Assembly (NCBI RefSeq): GCF_002753895.1
Contig: NZ_NJER01000003.1
Location: 496,001-560,000 of the forward strand
Source: Halobacteriovorax sp. JY17
GTDB taxonomy: Bacteria; Bdellovibrionota; Bacteriovoracia; Bacteriovoracales; Bacteriovoracaceae
Direction: 5' to 3'
DNA length: 64,000 bases
Under the pieces are notes generated by a model. It ran no database searches and was not told the origin of the DNA. It saw only the letters and a program-made list of their open reading frames with translations. Of the stretch, positions 1 through 18,700 are shown in pieces (position 1 is the first letter of the stretch; each line of letters opens with the position of its first letter). A program made the position numbers and the translations under genes.

Positions 1-1106
1 ACTTTTGGAATGATAGTGATCTTACAGAAAGCTTTTTAGAACTTCTTTCTTCTGATAAATCAGTTCTAAATGCATCAAAAGTTCTACAACCTATTTTAGA
101 GAATCAAGTTGTTTCATTCTTTTATTTAAATATTTCCAAGAACCCTCTTCTCGGAGAAGAGAGTTATATCTATAAGGCCATCCCCGAAAAAGGAGATAAT
201 GACCAATGTCTATATCTCGGGGAAGCAAACCAGCTAGTTAGACTTGAACCCCCATGTGAAACATTTCCAACTCTTCCAATTGTTGGCGTTAATAAGCATC
301 AAAATCTTATCTTTCTAGATGGAGATAAGAGGTACGTTATTACTGAAGGATTAAAGCCACTAGTTTTTAAAGAAAAAGAGATTCATATCCTTCCAAATTG
401 CGAAAAAGGATTTGAAAAAATTGAAGAGATTAAGAGTAATGTAATAAATGCCTTAGAGATTATTGAGAAAAACTCACCTGCACTATTTTCTACTTTCTCT
501 AACTTCACACATACAATTATTCCAATTGATGAGCCTTCAATCGTTAGTTATTCTCAACAACAGCTACCTGGTTTCTCTTGTATCAATGTTTTTGAAAGAG
601 ACTTTGTAGACTTAATTGATGATCTTCTTCATGAAAATGGTCATCACTACTTAAACTCTATTTTAAACTCACAAGAGTTAATTAATGAAGATGATGACAA
701 AATCTATTTTTCTCCTTGGAGAAAGTCCTTAAGGCCAATTAGAGGTATCTACCATGGTGCTTTTACATTCTTTTGGGCACTTGAATTGTTTTCTACTCTA
801 TTTGAAAATGAAGTTTTAAATAAGAAATTTAATAGCTTTACTCAAGAGCAAGCAAATAAAGTAACACTAAGGTTTCTTGAAGAGTTTGAAATGCTTAAGT
901 TCTGCTTTGAAGACCTAGATGCTGCCTTTGACGCAGAAAAGGTAACAAGTGAGGGTAGAGCTCTAATAAAAATCATTGAAGAGTTAACATTGGCAAAAGC
1001 AGAGCTTTCAGTGAAAGCCCTTGATTTTCTTTCCCCGGAAAATATAAAGAAAATTGATGAATTAAAGACCCTTCTTGAAAAAGAAGGGAAACATTATAGA
1101 CTATAA
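1..1106 (+). CDS. HExxH-motif peptide beta-hydroxylase-like protein (C-terminal part; 5' end outside window)
   Basis: The frame is open from base 3 to the stop at 1106, giving 367 visible residues; the start lies left of the window. Visible residues 210-214 are HENGH (bases 630-644), an HExxH metal-binding motif. About 23 residues later comes SPWRKSLRPIRGIYHG, an arrangement known from the HExxH-motif family (TIGR04267 type) associated with ribosomal peptide modification and described as iron/2-oxoglutarate peptide beta-hydroxylases. The His of YHG is the likely third metal ligand (inference). A TTG at 786 lies inside the conserved part and is not the start. The gene ends 6 bases into the convergent YgfZ-like gene. 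Its peptide substrate and partner enzymes, if any, would be further left. The assignment rests on motifs only. Confidence 0.6.
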   Translation, partial: FWNDSDLTESFLELLSSDKSVLNASKVLQPILENQVVSFFYLNISKNPLLGEESYIYKAIPEKGDNDQCLYLGEANQLVRLEPPCETFPTLPIVGVNKHQNLIFLDGDKRYVITEGLKPLVFKEKEIHILPNCEKGFEKIEEIKSNVINALEIIEKNSPALFSTFSNFTHTIIPIDEPSIVSYSQQQLPGFSCINVFERDFVDLIDDLLHENGHHYLNSILNSQELINEDDDKIYFSPWRKSLRPIRGIYHGAFTFFWALELFSTLFENEVLNKKFNSFTQEQANKVTLRFLEEFEMLKFCFEDLDAAFDAEKVTSEGRALIKIIEELTLAKAELSVKALDFLSPENIKKIDELKTLLEKEGKHYRL

Positions 1107-8203: not shown

Positions 8204-8227
8204 GCCGCTCTTAAGAAGCGGCTTTTT
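8204..8227 (+). terminator. Rho-independent terminator of the dicluster ferredoxin gene
   Basis: GCCGCT (8204-8209) pairs with AGCGGC (8217-8222) around a 7-base loop, followed by five T. It starts 12 bases after the stop codon and overlaps the end of convergent lspA. Confidence 0.85.
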
Positions 8228-8708
8228 CATTTCTCTTTTTTTCTAAGAAAATAAAATCAATAATTAACATGCCTGCCGCAATACTAATTGCACTATCTGC
8301 AATATTAAAGGCAGCAAAGTGGCTTGTTCCGATATAGAAATCGAACATGTCCACAACATACTTTAAACTATAACGATCAATAAGATTTCCAACCGCTCCC
8401 GCGAAGATCAGGCTATACGTTGTACAAAGCCAAGCACTAGTGTGCCTAGTTCTCCAAATCAGCCATAATAACCAAAGACAAGCTATAGTTGGTAAAACCA
8501 AAAAGAAAGTTATTCTTATAAAGTCACCAGAACCCGCTCCCATACCAAAGGCCGCACCAGAGTTTTGAACATACACTAAATTAAATAGCCCAGGTATTAC
8601 TGGTAAGGACTCACCGAGAGTGAAGTTCTGCTGTATCGCACCTTTAGTGAATTGATCCAAGAGAATCACTCCTACAATAAGGAGTGACATTTTCCAAATT
8701 CTATCCAT
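8211..8708 (-). CDS. lspA: Lipoprotein signal peptidase (signal peptidase II)
   Basis: A 165-residue inner-membrane aspartyl protease that cleaves the signal peptide of diacylglyceryl-modified prolipoproteins. The two catalytic aspartates are visible: D111 in GNLIDRY and D138 in NIADSA. Four membrane segments fit the family, and NSGAAFGM near residue 50 is conserved. The window encodes many lipoproteins that would be substrates. It is the last gene of the operon with the sigma54 activator, starting 10 bases after that gene's stop; AGGA lies 8 bases before the ATG. Its distance from the usual ileS partner is unusual. Confidence 0.95.
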   Translation of the reverse strand: MDRIWKMSLLIVGVILLDQFTKGAIQQNFTLGESLPVIPGLFNLVYVQNSGAAFGMGAGSGDFIRITFFLVLPTIACLWLLWLIWRTRHTSAWLCTTYSLIFAGAVGNLIDRYSLKYVVDMFDFYIGTSHFAAFNIADSAISIAAGMLIIDFIFLEKKRNEKAAS

Positions 8709-8718
8709 TTATTTATTC

Positions 8719-10218
8719 CTAATAATATGACTTCGGATTAATTTCATACTTCTCTATTTTCCTAAGAAGTGTCTTCTTAGGAATATTTGCTTTTAGAGCA
8801 GTTTGATTAATCTTACCCTTATTCATCTTAAGAGCATGGATGATAAATTCCTTTTCAAAGAGATCTTTTGCTACTTGAAAGTCTAATTTAATCTCATTAT
8901 CTTCCGTAACTGTTGCAAAAGTAAATTGATATCTCCCAACTTCTGAGTCTTCGACAACATTATCAACAACAGAATCTTGGATACCTTTAAAGTCAATTTG
9001 AACACTAGACTCATCAGAGTTATCTTCTGGTCTATCTACAATATTTGCACTCTTCTTAACCGGTTCAGGTAGAGATGAAATATTTATTTGCTCAGATGAT
9101 TCAATTATAAAAGCATGTTCAATAACATTTCTAAGTTCCCTAATATTTCCCGGCCATGAGTAGTTTTTTAAAACTTCCTGTGCCTCTGGAACACATCCTT
9201 TCATTTCAAGATTGTGAATACCATTAAAATATTTAACGTAGTAATCAATTAGAAATGGAATATCTGACTTTCTTTCTCTAAGCGGTGGTAGATATACAGG
9301 AAGAACATTTAATCTATAGAATAAATCTTCTCTAAACGTTCCTTCCTTAATCATTTCTTCAAAAGGCTTATGTGAAGCTGCAATCACTCTTACATCACAC
9401 TTAATATCTCTATTTGAACCTACAGGAGTAAATGACTTCTCCTGAAGAACTCTCAATAATTTCACCTGCATCGTAGAAGAGATATCTCCAATCTCATCTA
9501 AAAAAATTGTTCCACCATCTGCGTATTGGAACTTACCTATCTTTCTCTCACTCGCCCCAGTAAAAGCACCCTTCTCATGACCGAAGAGCTCTGACTCAAT
9601 TAAGTTGTCTGGAATAGCTGCGAGGTTAATCGTTACAAAGCGGTCATCTTTAAGTGGACCGTTAAAGTGAATAGCTTTTGCTACAAGCTCTTTACCTGTA
9701 CCTGACTCACCTCTAATTAAAACTGGAGTATTAACTTGCGCTAACTTTGAAATAACTCCAAAGACTTTTTGCATAACATCTGATTCACCAACAAATTTAT
9801 CATCTCCTCTTCCAAGAGATAATGACGGTGCAGAAAATATAGATGTTTCAACTAAGCTTCTTGCTTTTAGTGCTCGTTTAATTAAAGCAACTAAGTTTTC
9901 AGAGGAGATTGGCTTTTCAAGATAATTATAAGCGCCTTCTTTAACCGCCTTAACGGCATCGCCAACATTTGAATAAGCAGTAAGAATTAAAACAATAATG
10001 GAAGGATCATACTTCTTAATTTCTGTTAGTGCTTCAATACCACTCATCTCTGGCATATTGACGTCCATAACAACGAGATCATACTTTTCTTTATAGACAC
10101 AACTTAAAGCCTGCTTACCATTGTCGGCAGTATCAACTTTAAAGTGATGAAACTCTAGAGCTTGTTTAACAGAGTCCTGTAAAACCTTATCATCATCTAC
10201 AACAAGTACCTTGTGCAT
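8719..10218 (-). CDS. NtrC-family sigma54-dependent response regulator
   Basis: A 499-residue bacterial enhancer-binding protein with three parts. The receiver domain has phospho-acceptor D52 (VVMDVNMPEMSG) and the conserved lysine in LEKP. The AAA+ domain has Walker A GESGTGKE (170-177), the sigma54-contact loop GAFTGA (217-222) and Walker B TIFLDEIGD. The C-terminal Fis-type helix-turn-helix is at about 455-495. The intact GAFTGA loop means it should activate sigma54 promoters when phosphorylated. The kinase gene lies 15 bases upstream in the same operon, so it is the likely partner. A candidate target is the sigma54 promoter at 26871-26887 (inference). Confidence 0.95.
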   Translation of the reverse strand: MHKVLVVDDDKVLQDSVKQALEFHHFKVDTADNGKQALSCVYKEKYDLVVMDVNMPEMSGIEALTEIKKYDPSIIVLILTAYSNVGDAVKAVKEGAYNYLEKPISSENLVALIKRALKARSLVETSIFSAPSLSLGRGDDKFVGESDVMQKVFGVISKLAQVNTPVLIRGESGTGKELVAKAIHFNGPLKDDRFVTINLAAIPDNLIESELFGHEKGAFTGASERKIGKFQYADGGTIFLDEIGDISSTMQVKLLRVLQEKSFTPVGSNRDIKCDVRVIAASHKPFEEMIKEGTFREDLFYRLNVLPVYLPPLRERKSDIPFLIDYYVKYFNGIHNLEMKGCVPEAQEVLKNYSWPGNIRELRNVIEHAFIIESSEQINISSLPEPVKKSANIVDRPEDNSDESSVQIDFKGIQDSVVDNVVEDSEVGRYQFTFATVTEDNEIKLDFQVAKDLFEKEFIIHALKMNKGKINQTALKANIPKKTLLRKIEKYEINPKSYY

Positions 10219-10233: not shown

Positions 10234-12126
10234 TTACTTATTCTTTAATTTAATTTTAAACGTTGTCCCATTACCAACAACTGAGTTTGCTTCAATCGTT
10301 CCGCCATGTAACTCTACAAAGTATTTTACCAGATATAGTCCAAGACCGGTTCCTTTAATTGAGTGACTTGCATCATTTTTAACCCGATAAAACTTCTCAA
10401 ATATATATTCCAGATCTTCTAGAGGAATTCCTACTCCATTATCTGAAATTGTGATGTAAACCCATTGCTCATCATCCCACGTTTTTACGACAACCTCAGA
10501 ACCCTCTCCGGAATACTTTATTGCATTTTCAACCAAATTTGCAAAAACTCTCTTCATAAGGTTTATATCAAATTCAATTGGATAAAGTGGAGCTAATTCT
10601 TGAACAACTGTTACATCTTTAAGGGATGCTTCATATTGCAAACTCTCAACAGTATTCTCTACAATAGAGTTTATATCTTTCGATTGCATATTCAACGATA
10701 TATTTCTTGATTCAACCTTTGTTAAATCTAAAATTGAAGAGATGAATTTATTTAACTCTTTTGTTGCATCAATTATTGACTGAAGCCCACTTGAAAGTTC
10801 AACATTTCCTGTATTCTTATGCTTCATCACATCGGCCATGCCAGCAATTTTAGCAACTGGCGTTTTCAAGTCATGACTCATTAAAGAAATGAAGTTTTGC
10901 TTTAAGTTTTCAACCTTCTTTAAGAGTTTTGTCTCTTCTTGTATAGCATATCTTCTTTGGTATTCTCCAATTGCTCGAAAAGGAACCCAAATGTAGTAGA
11001 CAACAAATACTGTTAGAACAATATGTGTTATATAGAGCCAAAGCCCCAGCATTGAGAAGAGCAAGTACGCCAAGAGAATAACTCCGAACATAAGAGCAAG
11101 AGTCATGGCGAGACCTGTCGTCGGCCTCATTCTTGAAATGATTATTGAAAGAAATAGTGCAATTAAAATGGCCAAAACATTTGAAACATCTCTAGGTATT
11201 TGAAGAATTGTTTTATTTTGAACAAACGCCTGAATGATTTCTGCATGAATAGCGAGTTTTGAAGAAATATATTCTTCTCTATTAAAAGGTGTCAAAATCG
11301 TATCATTCGTATTTGAGATGTAGCTAGGACCAACGAGAACAGTTTTATTTTCAAAGAAACCTTTCGGAAAGTTTCCAACGAGAACTCTATGAAAAGGTAT
11401 TTTCTTTATTTTTCCTTTTGTAGAAACTGGATTCGTGAAGTATCTAAAAAGCGCAAAAGTAGCATCTGCTTCTTGGAGATAGTAAGCTCCTTGAATCGAA
11501 GTTGCATCAAGCCTTTCCATTCCCAGCTTCTCTCTACTTGTATTTGCCATCCATAAATGAAAAGACTCTTCCCCTGATATATTTATGAGCGCTCTACGAG
11601 AAATATCATCTTTTGCAAATGTTGCATTATCCTTATTTAGAACGGCCAGAGAGTAACCTAGCTCTCGAAGATCTCTTGGAGGTAAGTGCTCATCCCAATT
11701 ATCCATATTAGTTCCAAAGCGAAAGACACCTCCTGCTTTGGTATAGTTCTTAGTAAGAAGTTTGAATTTATCTAAAGCCTGCTTTTCTCTTGAGGAATCA
11801 GGCTCTAGTAATCCCACTAAGTAGCCTACCGCTCCAGGATTATCACTTAGTAGTCTTTCAATTAAAATTTCATGTGAAGCATAAGTATAGGGAAAGCTCT
11901 CTCCAAGAAATTGATCACTCTCTTCATCCATAGTAATAAGAACCACTTCATCTTTGAATGAGATACCCGCATCATACTTAATTCTTAAGTCATAGAAAAT
12001 TGATTCAAGTGAAGCAAATGAGTACTGGAAGAGTACCACTATAAAGATAACAGTGAAGACTAACGGATAGAGTCTTGATGTATCTATTTTCTTTAAATAG
12101 CTTAAAATTATCTTTAATTGTTTCAA
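10234..12126 (-). CDS. CHASE2-domain membrane sensor histidine kinase
   Basis: A 630-residue sensor. A membrane segment at about 20-40 is followed by a large extracytoplasmic CHASE2-type domain (about 45-310), three membrane segments (about 315-382), a short coiled linker, the HisKA dimerisation domain with phospho-acceptor H418 (SLMSHDLKTPV) and a HATPase domain with DNGVGI and GTGLGLYLVK. This is the normal CHASE2 kinase layout; the ligand is unknown. The first codon is TTG and no clear ribosome-binding site precedes it, so the start is less certain than the rest. The downstream NtrC-type regulator is the expected phospho-partner. Confidence 0.9.
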   Translation of the reverse strand: MKQLKIILSYLKKIDTSRLYPLVFTVIFIVVLFQYSFASLESIFYDLRIKYDAGISFKDEVVLITMDEESDQFLGESFPYTYASHEILIERLLSDNPGAVGYLVGLLEPDSSREKQALDKFKLLTKNYTKAGGVFRFGTNMDNWDEHLPPRDLRELGYSLAVLNKDNATFAKDDISRRALINISGEESFHLWMANTSREKLGMERLDATSIQGAYYLQEADATFALFRYFTNPVSTKGKIKKIPFHRVLVGNFPKGFFENKTVLVGPSYISNTNDTILTPFNREEYISSKLAIHAEIIQAFVQNKTILQIPRDVSNVLAILIALFLSIIISRMRPTTGLAMTLALMFGVILLAYLLFSMLGLWLYITHIVLTVFVVYYIWVPFRAIGEYQRRYAIQEETKLLKKVENLKQNFISLMSHDLKTPVAKIAGMADVMKHKNTGNVELSSGLQSIIDATKELNKFISSILDLTKVESRNISLNMQSKDINSIVENTVESLQYEASLKDVTVVQELAPLYPIEFDINLMKRVFANLVENAIKYSGEGSEVVVKTWDDEQWVYITISDNGVGIPLEDLEYIFEKFYRVKNDASHSIKGTGLGLYLVKYFVELHGGTIEANSVVGNGTTFKIKLKNK

Positions 12127-12150: not shown

Positions 12151-12984
12151 TTAAACTGAATGTTTTTCTCTTAGATAATATGATAACTTCTCTTTTCCTT
12201 CTTGGTGAGTGAGGGAAATTGTTTCAGTACAAATTTGAAATAGGTACGACCTTTTTTCTACAGTATTACCGTTAATCTTAAATAAGCTCGCTTCAAGCTC
12301 ATGTTTAAAATCAAATCTCAAGAGAAAGTCTGCTATAAGCTTTTCTTCTATCTCTTTCGAATTCAGAACATAATTCTTAAGTAGAATAAATGGCATCAGT
12401 AAATACTTAATAAGTGCAGAGAGTGCCTCTAATCTATACTTCTCTAAAATATTTGAGAAAATTAGTGGACTTAAAATTATTGTAAACAAGACTAAGTAGA
12501 TGGATATCTTTCTTGCGACCTTTCTCTTTATTTTAAAACACGCCAAACTCAGTAGGGCCTCTAACTCTTTGTCACTTAAACTAGTCAACGTTTCTGGATT
12601 AACAATTATGACAGGATTTGAAAAAGCATTATCTATAATATGCCAACCACGAACTCTTCTTGATGTATAAAGGTTCACCCTTGATATAGAAAATTTAAGT
12701 CGAATATTAGAAAGCATATAAGAAATTCTATTTTGATTTACAACTAACTTCGCTCTCATATAGCCCAATAAAAGACGATCACCAAAAATAAAGGCCAGAA
12801 GAATCCATAGACTTAATATGGAGGACGCATAGATTTCACCAAAACTTGGAAGTAAGATGAATCCTATCGCACTTGTAACGGAATAGAAGAATAATAGAAA
12901 ACCAAATAAAAACAACATATTACATATCAAACAAAGAAGGTTGATCCTTACTTTATTACACCTTTTATATGAAATTATAGACAA
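12151..12984 (-). CDS. Degenerate M48 (HtpX-like) membrane pseudoprotease
   Basis: A 277-residue membrane protein. Two membrane segments lie at about 15-45 and 52-75 and two more at about 160-205. Residues 119-151 follow the M48 pattern: NAF, an NPVIIVNPETLTSLSDKELEALL stretch, then SLACFK exactly where AHELGH should stand. Both zinc-binding histidines and the catalytic Glu are replaced (L147, A148, K151), and the third-ligand region keeps only IAD (217-219). It is therefore probably an inactive M48 relative used for binding or regulation. The start is TTG with no clear ribosome-binding site. It is the first gene of the operon with the CHASE2 kinase. The homology is recognised by eye. Confidence 0.6.
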   Translation of the reverse strand: MSIISYKRCNKVRINLLCLICNMLFLFGFLLFFYSVTSAIGFILLPSFGEIYASSILSLWILLAFIFGDRLLLGYMRAKLVVNQNRISYMLSNIRLKFSISRVNLYTSRRVRGWHIIDNAFSNPVIIVNPETLTSLSDKELEALLSLACFKIKRKVARKISIYLVLFTIILSPLIFSNILEKYRLEALSALIKYLLMPFILLKNYVLNSKEIEEKLIADFLLRFDFKHELEASLFKINGNTVEKRSYLFQICTETISLTHQEGKEKLSYYLREKHSV

Positions 12985-13152: not shown

Positions 13153-13989
13153 ATGCAAGCAAATAAGCTATTGTTCGGTACTGCGGGTGTTCCAAATAGT
13201 ACACAGAAGAAGAATAACCCAATCGAAGGCGTAAAACAAATCCATGCTCTTGGTTTAGACTGCATGCAATTAGAGTTTGCTCACGGTGTAAGAATGAAGG
13301 AAGAAGTTTCTTCAGCTCTTAGAAAAGTTTCTTATGAACTAGGTGTTCCTCTAACTTCTCACGGACCTTACTACATCAACCTCAACGCTAGAGAACAAGA
13401 TAAAATTGACTCTTCTGTTGAAAGAATTATTCAGACAGCGAAAATCTCTGATCTTTGTGGTGCGGAGTCTATGACTTTTCACGCCGCCTTCTACATGAAG
13501 GATTCTCCGTTTGATGTATTCGACCTTGTTGAAAAAAGTATGAACGTTATTGAAGAAAGACTAAGTAGACTTGATATTGAAATTGAACTTCGTCCAGAAT
13601 TAACAGGAAAGACGAGTCAATTTGGATCGCTTGATGAGCTTATTACTTTAACTAAGAATGTTTCTTCATGTGCTCCATGTATGGACTTTTCTCACCTTTA
13701 TGCAAGAACTGGAAAGTATAATACTGAAGAAGAATTCAAAGAAGTTCTAACAAGAATTAAAGACGAGATTGGTGAATCCTCTCTTTCAAATATGCATATT
13801 CATATTTCAGGAATCAGCTCTAACTCAAAGGGTGACTTAAAGCACCTTAACCTTGCAAAGTCTAAATTCAACTGGCAAGCGTTACTTAAGAGTTTAAAAG
13901 ATTTTAATTGTGGTGGTTATGTTATCTGTAACAGCCCTAATCTTGAAGATGATGCTCTACTGATGAAAGAATTTTATAATACATTATAA
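13153..13989 (+). CDS. Endonuclease IV-like TIM-barrel protein
   Basis: A 278-residue AP-endonuclease-family-2 type barrel. Most metal positions of endonuclease IV can be matched: H70 (SHGPYYINL), H110 (FHAAF), E149, D178 and H181 (MDFSHLYA), H215 (MHIH) and H231. The site matching E261 of E. coli Nfo is N260 (ICNSP), and the Asp preceding H231 is not conserved. It may be an AP endonuclease of the archaeal-like branch or a sugar isomerase-type relative. GGGAG precedes the ATG. It is a single gene closed by a strong terminator. Confidence 0.75.
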   Translation: MQANKLLFGTAGVPNSTQKKNNPIEGVKQIHALGLDCMQLEFAHGVRMKEEVSSALRKVSYELGVPLTSHGPYYINLNAREQDKIDSSVERIIQTAKISDLCGAESMTFHAAFYMKDSPFDVFDLVEKSMNVIEERLSRLDIEIELRPELTGKTSQFGSLDELITLTKNVSSCAPCMDFSHLYARTGKYNTEEEFKEVLTRIKDEIGESSLSNMHIHISGISSNSKGDLKHLNLAKSKFNWQALLKSLKDFNCGGYVICNSPNLEDDALLMKEFYNTL

Positions 13990-15830: not shown

Positions 15831-16022
15831 ATGAAACCTGAACTTGAAATAAATAATAGGTGCATTTCCTGTGATAATTGTAGGCTGATATGTCCGGAAA
15901 AGGCCATTATAAAGTTTAAGGATACATATGCTATCGATACATGGTCCTGTACTCTCTGCTCCATTTGCATTGAGGTTTGTCCTGTAGATTGCATTAAAAT
16001 TGTTGATAAAGTTAATGACTAA
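15831..16022 (+). CDS. Small 2[4Fe-4S] bacterial-type ferredoxin
   Basis: A 63-residue protein containing two CxxCxxCxxxCP motifs, C11/C14/C17/C21 and C40/C43/C46/C50, and little else. This is the classic clostridial-type dicluster ferredoxin, a low-potential electron carrier. It overlaps the 3' end of convergent murU by 4 bases. No dedicated redox enzyme is adjacent; the ETF/acyl-CoA dehydrogenase genes are 5 kb away. Confidence 0.9.
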   Translation: MKPELEINNRCISCDNCRLICPEKAIIKFKDTYAIDTWSCTLCSICIEVCPVDCIKIVDKVND

Positions 16023-16927
16023 ACTTTTGAGACTTCTCCGTCATAGATTACTGCTATAGAATTACCAGTATCCTTATTCACTCCCCTTATAATAATATTG
16101 CCTGTTCCATTGTCCATACTCTCATTATTTAAGTTTATGCTGAACTCACTCCCCTTAGAGTTATAGCAATTTAAATCTTGAATTTTTTCTTGCTCAAAAG
16201 ATTTATTTTTTATGATAAAGCTTTTAAAAAGAGTTTCTTTATTCAATAAAGCCTTTCTCATCGAGTTAATATAACGCTCAGTTGTTCCAAAGTCCCAGTA
16301 CTCAAATTCATTGGGTTTGAAAACAGCAACCTCTTTCTTTCTAAAGTCTGCCACGCTTTCGAAGAATTTACTTTTTCCCTCACATGGAGCTAACTTTGAT
16401 AGATTGATTATACTTACTCCACTATACGTGTAATAAGAATCTGTAGGCGAGGGTCGCTCTATTGATTTTAACAACCCTTCTTCTACTACTAACTCATTAT
16501 ATTCGGATCCTGCTTTAACTTTTAATCCCATTAAGGTTGCTACAAAGCTTAGGCTCTTTTCTTTAAACTCTGCAAAGGCGTCTTTATTAACGAGAAGAAA
16601 CTGATCTCCATTTAAAATAAGAACTCTTCCTTTATAATTTAAAACTTTCGCAAGATTATGAATAGCACCGCCTATGTCCAGCAAGGATTCTTCATAGAGA
16701 ACTTCAATATTTAATTTCTTTTTAAGAATATAATTTTGAATTTTTTCTGCTTGAAAATGAGTATTTAGATAAATCTTTTTAACTCCACACTCTATCGCAT
16801 AGTCAACTTGAAGCTCTAATAGAGTCTTTTCAAAAACTGGCCAAAGAAGCTTTGGAAGAGCTTCTCCCACCGCCCCCATTCTTGTCCCAAGACCTGCTCC
16901 TAAAATATAGGCAATCTCAAGACTCAT
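16019..16927 (-). CDS. murU: MurU-like MurNAc-1-phosphate uridylyltransferase with C-terminal extension
   Basis: A 302-residue nucleotidyltransferase. The N-terminal 225 residues match the sugar-1-phosphate nucleotidyltransferase fold: GAGLGTRMG at 10-18 with LPKLLWPV after it, LLDIGGAIHN, and the metal-binding LNGDQF. In MurU this makes UDP-MurNAc from MurNAc-1-phosphate, bypassing de novo synthesis. About 75 extra residues at the end (from KSFIIKNKSF) have no recognised domain. It overlaps amgK by 11 bases, which strongly supports the MurU assignment over other NTP transferases. Confidence 0.85.
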   Translation of the reverse strand: MSLEIAYILGAGLGTRMGAVGEALPKLLWPVFEKTLLELQVDYAIECGVKKIYLNTHFQAEKIQNYILKKKLNIEVLYEESLLDIGGAIHNLAKVLNYKGRVLILNGDQFLLVNKDAFAEFKEKSLSFVATLMGLKVKAGSEYNELVVEEGLLKSIERPSPTDSYYTYSGVSIINLSKLAPCEGKSKFFESVADFRKKEVAVFKPNEFEYWDFGTTERYINSMRKALLNKETLFKSFIIKNKSFEQEKIQDLNCYNSKGSEFSINLNNESMDNGTGNIIIRGVNKDTGNSIAVIYDGEVSKV

Positions 16928-17933
16928 AGTACTTGCCCATAATCAAATTAAAGAGACCTCTGTACTCTGGATACTTCTTTAGTTTATTGCGAAGCTTTTC
17001 CATCGCAAATCCAATATACTTTAAATATCGACTATCACCTCTATCCTCATTAATGTAGGCAAAGCTTCCAATTGCCTTGAAGATTCGCTGAATAGTCATT
17101 AAGTCGTACAATCTTTCAAATTCTTCTCTACTTTGATTTAAATTACCTATATTTTCAATATAGTAGCTTTTTAATTTTTTAATATTCTTTGGGGAAAGCT
17201 GAAAGTAACAATCTTCTAACATTGAAACAAGATCGTATTGTGCAATTCCCTGTCTTGCATCTTGAAAGTCAATAACTACGGGCTCACCATTTTTCATCAT
17301 GATATTTCTAGAATGAAAATCTCGGTGACAAAGAACCATGTCTTCTTTAGACAACTCCTCAATAATTTGTCCAAATTGTTTTTCATAAAGCTCTTCTTCT
17401 TCGTTTGTTAACTCCACTTTCAAGAAAGATTTTAAGAAATGTTCTCTTGTGAAGTTCATCTCAAACATTAGCTTTTCATGATCAAATTTTAATTTTCCCC
17501 ATGAATAATCTTTATCTGCAGGAATACTATGGATTTTAATTAAAATATTTATAATTTTTTTGTATGTTTCATATATTTCATTTTCATCTTGAATCAAAGA
17601 GACATGTGAAAGCAATGTAATATTTCCGAGATCTTCCTGAAGAAAATAGCCTTTCTTTATATTATGATCGTGGATTTTAGGAACTCTTACCCCTTGCATT
17701 TCAAATACATTGTAGACATTTAAGAAATCACTATCATTATCTTCCTTTCTTGGCTCACTTAAACATGAAACATAGCTATTACTATCTGTTACGACTCTGT
17801 AGTAACGCCTTGTCGAAGCATCTCCCGTAAGGGCAACAATTTCTCTTGCTTCAACATCAAAATTTTCAATCCTTGTTCTTGTGTTCTCAAATAATTCTTC
17901 GATCAAAATTCTCTCACTATCCTCAGGTCTCAT
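16917..17933 (-). CDS. amgK: AmgK-like anomeric MurNAc/GlcNAc kinase
   Basis: A 338-residue aminoglycoside-phosphotransferase-fold kinase. Catalytic loop HRDFHSRN at 203-210 (D205) and metal-binding IDFQDA at 221-226 (D222) match AmgK, which phosphorylates MurNAc at the anomeric position. Together with MurU it recycles peptidoglycan sugar to UDP-MurNAc. It sits between the lipoprotein gene (4-base ATGA overlap) and murU (11-base overlap), so all three are probably translated from one message. In a predatory bacterium the sugars could come from prey wall (inference). Confidence 0.88.
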   Translation of the reverse strand: MRPEDSERILIEELFENTRTRIENFDVEAREIVALTGDASTRRYYRVVTDSNSYVSCLSEPRKEDNDSDFLNVYNVFEMQGVRVPKIHDHNIKKGYFLQEDLGNITLLSHVSLIQDENEIYETYKKIINILIKIHSIPADKDYSWGKLKFDHEKLMFEMNFTREHFLKSFLKVELTNEEEELYEKQFGQIIEELSKEDMVLCHRDFHSRNIMMKNGEPVVIDFQDARQGIAQYDLVSMLEDCYFQLSPKNIKKLKSYYIENIGNLNQSREEFERLYDLMTIQRIFKAIGSFAYINEDRGDSRYLKYIGFAMEKLRNKLKKYPEYRGLFNLIMGKYYES

Positions 17934-18700
17934 CTTACTTTCCTCTTAACGTCTCTTACGAAGTAATAATAGTCAGGAGAAGAGTTCGCCTGTCTTCCAG
18001 AAAACGTTTCCTTAACTTTTAATTCGGATATAAAGCTTTTAAAAAGAAACTCTTCTCTTGAGATTATTTGCGTATTTCCATACAGCAACGTAAAATCCAA
18101 TGTATTCTTATTCATTGTTTGCAACCATATAAGTAATGCATATGGGTCATGACCAGATCTCTTAAGTACATAATAGGTCCACTTATTAACTTCAGTTTTA
18201 ATTTCAACTGGAAGCCTTGTGTAGTTTAAAACTTCCTTTGTATTGATATACCCTTTAGGAATAAGGGTCTTTGCTGGAAAAAGATTTCTCTGACTAACCA
18301 CAATGCTCTTTGTAAAAGCCGCAATGAAAATTTCTTCATTCTTCATATAATTAATAATTAATGCACTTGAAAAAAAGAAGTTTGCTTTGGGTAGTGAAAA
18401 CAGGAAAGGTACTTCACTTTCTATTATATTAAAACTTGGAGTCAGTGGCTCTCTTAAGAAAAGCTTATTATTTGAAACTACTTTAAAGTAGAGAAGTTCA
18501 AGATACTTCCTACTTTTTGTACTTAACTTTACTCTTTTAACTCCGTCCGTATTTAGATAAGCACTTCCAATTGAGGCCAATTGATCAACATAATCTCTTT
18601 CAGGAGTTATAAATAATTTCTTATCAAATTCATATTCGTCTCTCTGAAAAAGAGAGCAAGAAGTTAAGAGAATAGATAATAGGAAAATAACTTTAGTCAT
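17930..18700 (-). CDS. Lipoprotein of unknown function, first gene of the amgK-murU operon
   Basis: A 256-residue protein with lipobox LTSC (Cys at residue 15) after a short hydrophobic signal. The mature region is mixed alpha/beta without a recognised domain and ends in a basic stretch. It contains KSRKYLELLYFKVVSNNKLF and DFTLLYGNTQIISREEF segments that look like strands of a surface-anchored domain. Its stop overlaps the amgK start by 4 bases. A role in capture or handling of wall sugars is suggested only by position. Confidence 0.7.
   Translation of the reverse strand: MTKVIFLLSILLTSCSLFQRDEYEFDKKLFITPERDYVDQLASIGSAYLNTDGVKRVKLSTKSRKYLELLYFKVVSNNKLFLREPLTPSFNIIESEVPFLFSLPKANFFFSSALIINYMKNEEIFIAAFTKSIVVSQRNLFPAKTLIPKGYINTKEVLNYTRLPVEIKTEVNKWTYYVLKRSGHDPYALLIWLQTMNKNTLDFTLLYGNTQIISREEFLFKSFISELKVKETFSGRQANSSPDYYYFVRDVKRKVR

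Follow-up and report, generated by a model that had tools for sequence, protein, structure and literature searches.

The closest described relatives of the protein analyzed here are the HtpX-type membrane proteases (PF01435), which we take to be M48B. The likeness extends to the fold, the hydrophobic helices flanking the catalytic helix, the sequence profile, the position in the tree and the Pro and Lys landmarks, but our protein has no HExxH or conserved third-ligand Glu, is invisible to Pfam and is encoded in a kinase operon. Broken HtpX-type proteins of other families share the same ancestral gene and have lost the catalytic residues to varying degrees; in contrast to ours, they mostly lie beside MoxR/vWA genes and/or DegQ and not beside a kinase. 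BlaR1 and MecR1 are membrane gluzincins (M56) used in signaling and provide the best structural match. BlaR1 is an active protease that senses through a penicillin-binding domain; neither that domain nor a catalytic site was seen in our protein. Membrane protease scaffolds that are used without cutting are also found in iRhoms, Derlins and non-proteolytic YqgP (for YqgP, PMC7231995), although these have the rhomboid serine-protease fold, which is unrelated to M48. A paper on piroplasmid parasites puts the share of MEROPS families with inactive homologs at about 70%, and no HtpX-derived pseudoprotease is described in its available part (PMC9965338). A search of full-text literature, which includes few subscription journals, gave no description of an HtpX-derived pseudoprotease or of a BepA-like dead lipoprotein among the matches listed. 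It also gave nothing on CHASE2 with Bacteriovorax or on "inactive homolog" with HtpX and, in the parts of the sources available, nothing relevant on HtpX with Bdellovibrio. The matches listed on two-component systems of Bacteriovorax and on Halobacteriovorax transcriptomes were of no use either.

The window is a stretch of 64,000 nucleotides from Halobacteriovorax sp. JY17, and its relevant features are seen in Table 1. The gene of interest uses a TTG start, which was also found, together with near-identical sequence just upstream, in two congeners (loci L070 and L071).

Table 1. Predicted features of the window and of the HtpX-derived protein
Feature	Position	Strand	Details
HtpX-derived pseudoprotease	12151..12984	minus	277 aa, TTG start
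Pseudoprotease, TM1-2	residues 8-44 and 49-75		helices; AlphaFold2 model and hydropathy
Pseudoprotease, dead gluzincin domain	residues ~76-158		
Pseudoprotease, TM3-4	residues ~156-207		hydrophobic helices, followed by C-terminal helices
SLACFK	12532..12549	minus	residues 146-151; position of AHELGH in HtpX
CHASE2 sensor histidine kinase	10234..12126	minus	630 aa; CHASE2 1.1e-24, HisKA 2.4e-10, HATPase_c 3.1e-29 (Pfam)
NtrC-type sigma-54 response regulator	8719..10218	minus	499 aa; Sigma54_activat 8.2e-69, Response_reg 5.4e-32 (Pfam)
LspA, lipoprotein signal peptidase II	8211..8708	minus	165 aa; PF01252 6.3e-40, TIGR00077 above cut-off
AP_endonuc_2 TIM-barrel gene, divergent	13153..13989	plus	Pfam
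NTP transferase and APH-type kinase pair	16019-17933	minus	Pfam
BepA-like (M48C-type) lipoprotein, pseudo-M48	17930..18700	minus	256 aa

Descent from an HtpX-type protease

Neither Pfam nor NCBIfam detected M48 in the window protein, and PF01435 gave no M48 match in 23 members of its GTDB family up to E 10 (within HMMER filters). Matches to PH_13 (E 0.26) and AbgT (E 0.11) were taken as chance. When 11 intact HtpX-type proteins from the phylum were compared by profile with hhalign, the result was 99.3% (E 4e-20, 230 columns); eight Ste24-type proteins gave 94.5% (E 7.6e-8) and 12 E. coli-type HtpX proteins from the phylum 91.1% (E 1.1e-6), while six neighboring families used as controls gave 0.4-3.4%. 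The M48C-like set reached just 2.8% and, therefore, the likeness is to the membrane types of M48. Two landmarks of HtpX-type proteins are retained: P198 (56 of 60 rows), which aligns with a Pro 15 residues before the third ligand, and K236 (44 of 60), which aligns with the Lys of "ALrK".

An M48 fold had been proposed in the original prediction, and both hhalign and the structural model bore this out. The AlphaFold2 model (pLDDT 82.7, pTM 0.75) matched BlaR1, Ste24, ZMPSTE24 and the HtpX domain in the top 12 rows of Foldseek; the best E-value there was a modest 4.5e-3, so the case for HtpX descent rests mainly on the profile comparison. With VIA, rows 1-21 were all M48, M56 or minigluzincin structures (BlaR1, Ste24, ZMPSTE24, HtpX, minigluzincins, 3c37 and BepA), and unrelated chains appeared only from Z 4.7 down. 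BlaR1 scored highest (Z 10.1), about 2 Z above Ste24 (8.2) and HtpX (3cqb, 7.8 over 95 residues at 3.1 Å), where Z below about 8 can reflect a common arrangement by the tool's own warning and where the profile and tree sets contained no M56 sequences.

A tree was calculated from 57 sequences and 269 columns, leaving out the eight Ste24 rows and 46 of the 60 pseudoproteases. The 14 sampled pseudoproteases formed one clade (UFBoot 100) within the HtpX-type clade, which separated from E. coli-type HtpX with support of 97-100. Two placements outside the HtpX-type clade gave AU p-values of 0.050 and 0.048 and non-significant SH p-values of 0.09 and 0.146, in topology tests for which IQ-TREE warned of too few replicates and in a tree with long branches. 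Descent from the genome's own E. coli-type HtpX was rejected by comparing the two hhalign results (91.1%, 1.1e-6 vs. 99.3%, 4e-20); the tree agrees, with AU only at 0.050 and SH non-significant. From the profile, model and tree, we consider it very probable that the window protein is a dead descendant of HtpX.

Loss of the active site and constraint

The original prediction had placed SLACFK where AHELGH should stand, with both His and the Glu replaced. In the hhalign alignment to the 11 intact HtpX-type proteins, L147, A148 and K151 do fall on the His, Glu and His of HExxH. The stretch NAF, read there as an M48 landmark, turned out to be a coincidence, since residues 119-121 are six residues off and GWH (113-115) is what aligns with the M48 NAF. 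All zinc-binding and catalytic residues had been called lost there, and the third zinc ligand indeed lacks conservation as well. Its column corresponds by alignment to N208 or E213, with an uncertain register. Glu occurs at these two candidate columns, in the E-x-x-A-D helix, in only 6 of 60 and 11 of 60 proteins and so is not conserved in the family, yet the window protein has E213 at one of them.

HExxH was absent from all 60 proteins compared, namely the window protein and 59 relatives of its GTDB family. A Bacteriovoracaceae metagenome-assembled genome, UBA3083, was among the relatives found. Single letters survive (first His in two rows, Glu in four and second His in one), and never do two of the three occur in one row. 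This set excludes L069, dropped as a duplicate of L071 on the same contig, and L116, which had no match. Seven further family members also lack HExxH at the catalytic helix. More widely, the pseudoprotease profile matched 103 of 129 family genomes at E ≤ 0.001, at least one of which (G033) did so only via a Ste24-type M48 gene, and 38 of 48 genera, again with a Ste24-type gene instead in at least one. The original prediction had linked relatives that retain HExxH with a recent local loss. Such relatives exist in other families of the phylum, where 11 of 30 orthologs keep the motif, but not within the family (0 of 59); a recent local loss was therefore rejected, and the loss is ancient. A C-terminal motif, EF(L/F)PHE, is common to the pseudoproteases of L107, L108, L110 and L212; in L212, one of the seven further members, it gives rise to a chance HEIEH, far from the old active site.

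The reading frame has stayed open: it spans 233-310 aa in all relatives but one (58 of 59), and in that one, L111, it is cut by the end of the contig. Identity to the window protein in the alignment falls to 17-24% outside its genus. Where dS was finite, the printed pairs gave dN/dS of 0.052-0.095 for the pseudoprotease, including 0.073 and 0.095 for the window against two congeners, and 0.016-0.053 for the CHASE2 kinase, although these values are rough because dS was saturated in many pairs and above 1 in most of the others. The gene evolves faster than its neighbors, yet is clearly under purifying selection. The most conserved columns (P198, Y106, L73, D69, A78, K236 and P173) are mostly structural, and family members differ freely at those of the former catalytic helix. 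Judged from sequence comparison, the absence of the site in the orthologs together with purifying selection points to a pseudoprotease.

Gene order in the family and the orthologous loci elsewhere

A short-range order of pseudoprotease, CHASE2 kinase, NtrC-type regulator and LspA had also been described in the original prediction, and it holds in the window, with gaps of 24, 15 and 10 bp. The regulator's HTH_8 match (2.1e-4, 21.4 bits) is just below the cut-off of 22. Among the 59 relatives, the kinase is next to the pseudoprotease on the same strand in 57, with the regulator on that strand too; the two genes overlap or abut in 37 of these 57 and are within 25 bp in 55. In 50 of 59 relatives LspA was recognized on this strand as well, and some of the other nine loci are cut by contig ends. 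Of the 60 distinct loci, 29 have an Lgt-motif ORF, which PF01790 confirmed in one case (2.4e-36). The divergent TIM-barrel gene adjoins the pseudoprotease in 59 of 59. These data support a conserved linkage of the pseudoprotease to the CHASE2 kinase, the NtrC regulator and LspA.

The linkage has exceptions in both directions. Of the two relatives without a kinase link, L111 is truncated by the end of its contig, and L121 (genus g26) lacks both kinase and regulator and has the pseudoprotease gene immediately in front of LspA. Conversely, all four loci of genus g32 (L218-L221) keep kinase and regulator with a gap of 363-378 bp and no pseudoprotease gene. A shorter upstream gene of 155-215 aa, undetected by the profile, was found at L216, L217 and L222-L224, and L213 has a 306-aa upstream gene with just 15.6 bits to the profile. 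In total, 73 loci had both TIM barrel and kinase visible; 63 had a detected pseudoprotease, most of them by construction because the profile was built from the same 60 proteins, four (all g32) had none, and six had another gene, five of these being the shorter ones. Kinase divergence was higher where the pseudoprotease is missing, but regulator and TIM-barrel divergence was higher too, a pattern of relatedness and not of coupling. The CHASE2 kinases of L223 and L224, which have upstream genes of 155 and 215 aa, are the most diverged by far (363 and 276 bits; next lowest 668). In other families, the kinase/NtrC pair had no pseudoprotease gene upstream in 20 of 20 loci.

Outside the family, 39 loci had an HtpX-type match, of which 30 were sorted as orthologs, seven as E. 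coli-type HtpX and one (L309) as a further M48, with a fragment (L315) left out. HExxH is absent from 19 of the 30 orthologs, and the loss is graded: four of five proteins of family f6 have HQxxH, f26 has HExxR, f21 has HExxK, and f22 retains none of the three letters. The broken loci are L246-L249, L254, L255, L258, L261, L262, L264, L298-L300, L302, L303, L306-L308 and L311, most of them at the MoxR/DegQ locus. As many as 27 of the 30 orthologs adjoin at least one gene of this locus, which is made up of MoxR/DUF58/vWA genes, a gene for a 90-aa protein and DegQ; the exceptions are L251, which is located at the end of its contig, and L307 and L308, which have other neighbors. In the window's family, four DegQ loci were scanned and gave no match to an HtpX-type or 90-aa neighbor, and the long form of DegQ (490-aa frame) was found in only one (G047) of 10 family genomes.

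Two families bear on the origin of the pseudoprotease. All three genes found in f20 are intact, and each adjoins the divergent TIM-barrel gene that also neighbors the pseudoprotease in the window's family; a fourth f20 genome gave no match. Sisterhood with these genes was disfavored (AU p 0.032, SH p 0.094, 5000 replicates). In the tree, the pseudoprotease clade joined broken, long-branched proteins from f17 and f3 (94/89), a placement that may be long-branch attraction. In f17, the broken relative (L306) lies within the DegQ locus, and both f17 loci with the kinase have the order kinase-regulator-LspA-Lgt without a pseudoprotease upstream of the kinase. Therefore, the kinase operon may be older than the recruitment of the pseudoprotease.

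A second dead M48, the BepA-like lipoprotein, is encoded nearby. HExxH is absent from the window copy and from 43 of 43 homologs. Its hhalign result was 96.7% (E 4.5e-10) for the M48C-type set, compared with 0.5% for the HtpX set, 0.6% for the Ste24 set and at most 4.3% for six non-M48 controls. The model (pLDDT 90.0) matched BepA with Z 19.3 over 205 residues (Foldseek E 9e-6). Across the window protein and 26 relatives, E122, E217, Q194, N197 and K221 do not vary, and residue 132, the position of the HExxH Glu, is at least 90% Glu but Ser in the window. Wherever both genes were found (43 of 43 loci), the lipoprotein gene lies 4.9-6.6 kb from the HtpX-type pseudoprotease on the same strand; it was not found in the fetched stretch of 17 of the 60 loci. 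The adjacent pair of NTP transferase and APH-type kinase genes, perhaps for AmgK/MurU-like cell-wall sugar recycling, has homologs in the same neighborhood in several relatives.

Proposed role and alternatives

In our reading, the gene encodes a membrane protein that has the four-helix HtpX layout and descends from an HtpX-type membrane protease; the zinc-binding and catalytic residues were lost, with the fold kept, before the Bacteriovoracaceae-type relatives compared here diverged. The gene became the first, tightly spaced member of an operon for the CHASE2 kinase, the NtrC regulator and LspA, with Lgt in many relatives. The dead domain, predicted from hydropathy and charge counts to face the cytosol as in HtpX, could bind a membrane-protein client or the kinase without cutting, and this binding may adjust the kinase according to the condition of the inner membrane or of the lipoprotein pathway. 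The protein probably works as a partner rather than as an enzyme. That it acts mainly on or with the kinase is a tentative reading, suggested by gene order, to which we give slightly less than an even chance; operon position alone does not prove an interaction, and an obligate role with the kinase is weakened by the L121 locus, which has no kinase, and by g32, which has no pseudoprotease. The combined statement, an HtpX-derived pseudoprotease recruited to the kinase operon and acting with the kinase, likewise stops a little short of probable. An extended form, in which the BepA-derived lipoprotein outside the inner membrane and the HtpX-derived membrane protein would together report envelope or lipoprotein quality non-catalytically to the CHASE2 kinase and sigma-54 regulator in the operon with LspA (often Lgt), seems to us quite unlikely.

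Another possible explanation is that the protein is a substrate adaptor, which binds damaged or unassembled membrane proteins and either protects them or hands them over to FtsH or to the genome's own active HtpX/Ste24, so that the link to the kinase would only be co-regulation. Active-looking genes of the HtpX, Ste24 and M48C types are present in this genome, an M48 match above the Pfam cut-off occurs in 128 of 129 family genomes, and in other families the genes for broken HtpX-type proteins do not neighbor this kinase. A precedent is YqgP of B. subtilis, described in PMC7231995 as a pseudoprotease-like FtsH adaptor independent of its own activity. Tight spacing to a single kinase, as seen in 57 of 59 relatives, is not what a general adaptor would be expected to show, however, and we consider this explanation somewhat unlikely. 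The frequent presence of LspA on the same strand (50 of 59) and of an Lgt-motif ORF (29 of 60), as well as the L121 locus, where the gene is kept before LspA without kinase or regulator, would also fit a helper of lipoprotein maturation that assists LspA/Lgt, with the kinase sensing that pathway. Since f17 has the order kinase-regulator-LspA-Lgt without the gene upstream, with its broken relative at the DegQ locus, and LspA was unrecognized in nine of 59 loci (some at contig ends), such a helper is unlikely.

Two further explanations concern the protein itself. Fast divergence (17-24% identity outside the genus) and the shortened or absent gene in some genera could suggest a decaying, functionless relic carried by the operon, but this is very improbable given dN/dS of 0.052-0.095, open frames in 58 of 59 relatives and profile matches in 38 of 48 genera, at least one of them through a Ste24-type gene. 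Conversion into another kind of enzyme, one that needs no zinc, is harder still to believe; the domain has retained its fold, but the conserved columns are mostly structural and those of the catalytic helix vary freely.

The finding means that one gene can be traced across the phylum: it begins as an intact protease, passes through forms with HExxR/K and HQxxH and ends as a fully dead protein within the operon of a sensor kinase. With this series, how a bacterial pseudoprotease arose can be tested one step at a time. We know of no ligand for the CHASE2 sensor domain, and the pseudoprotease may supply a partner for it.
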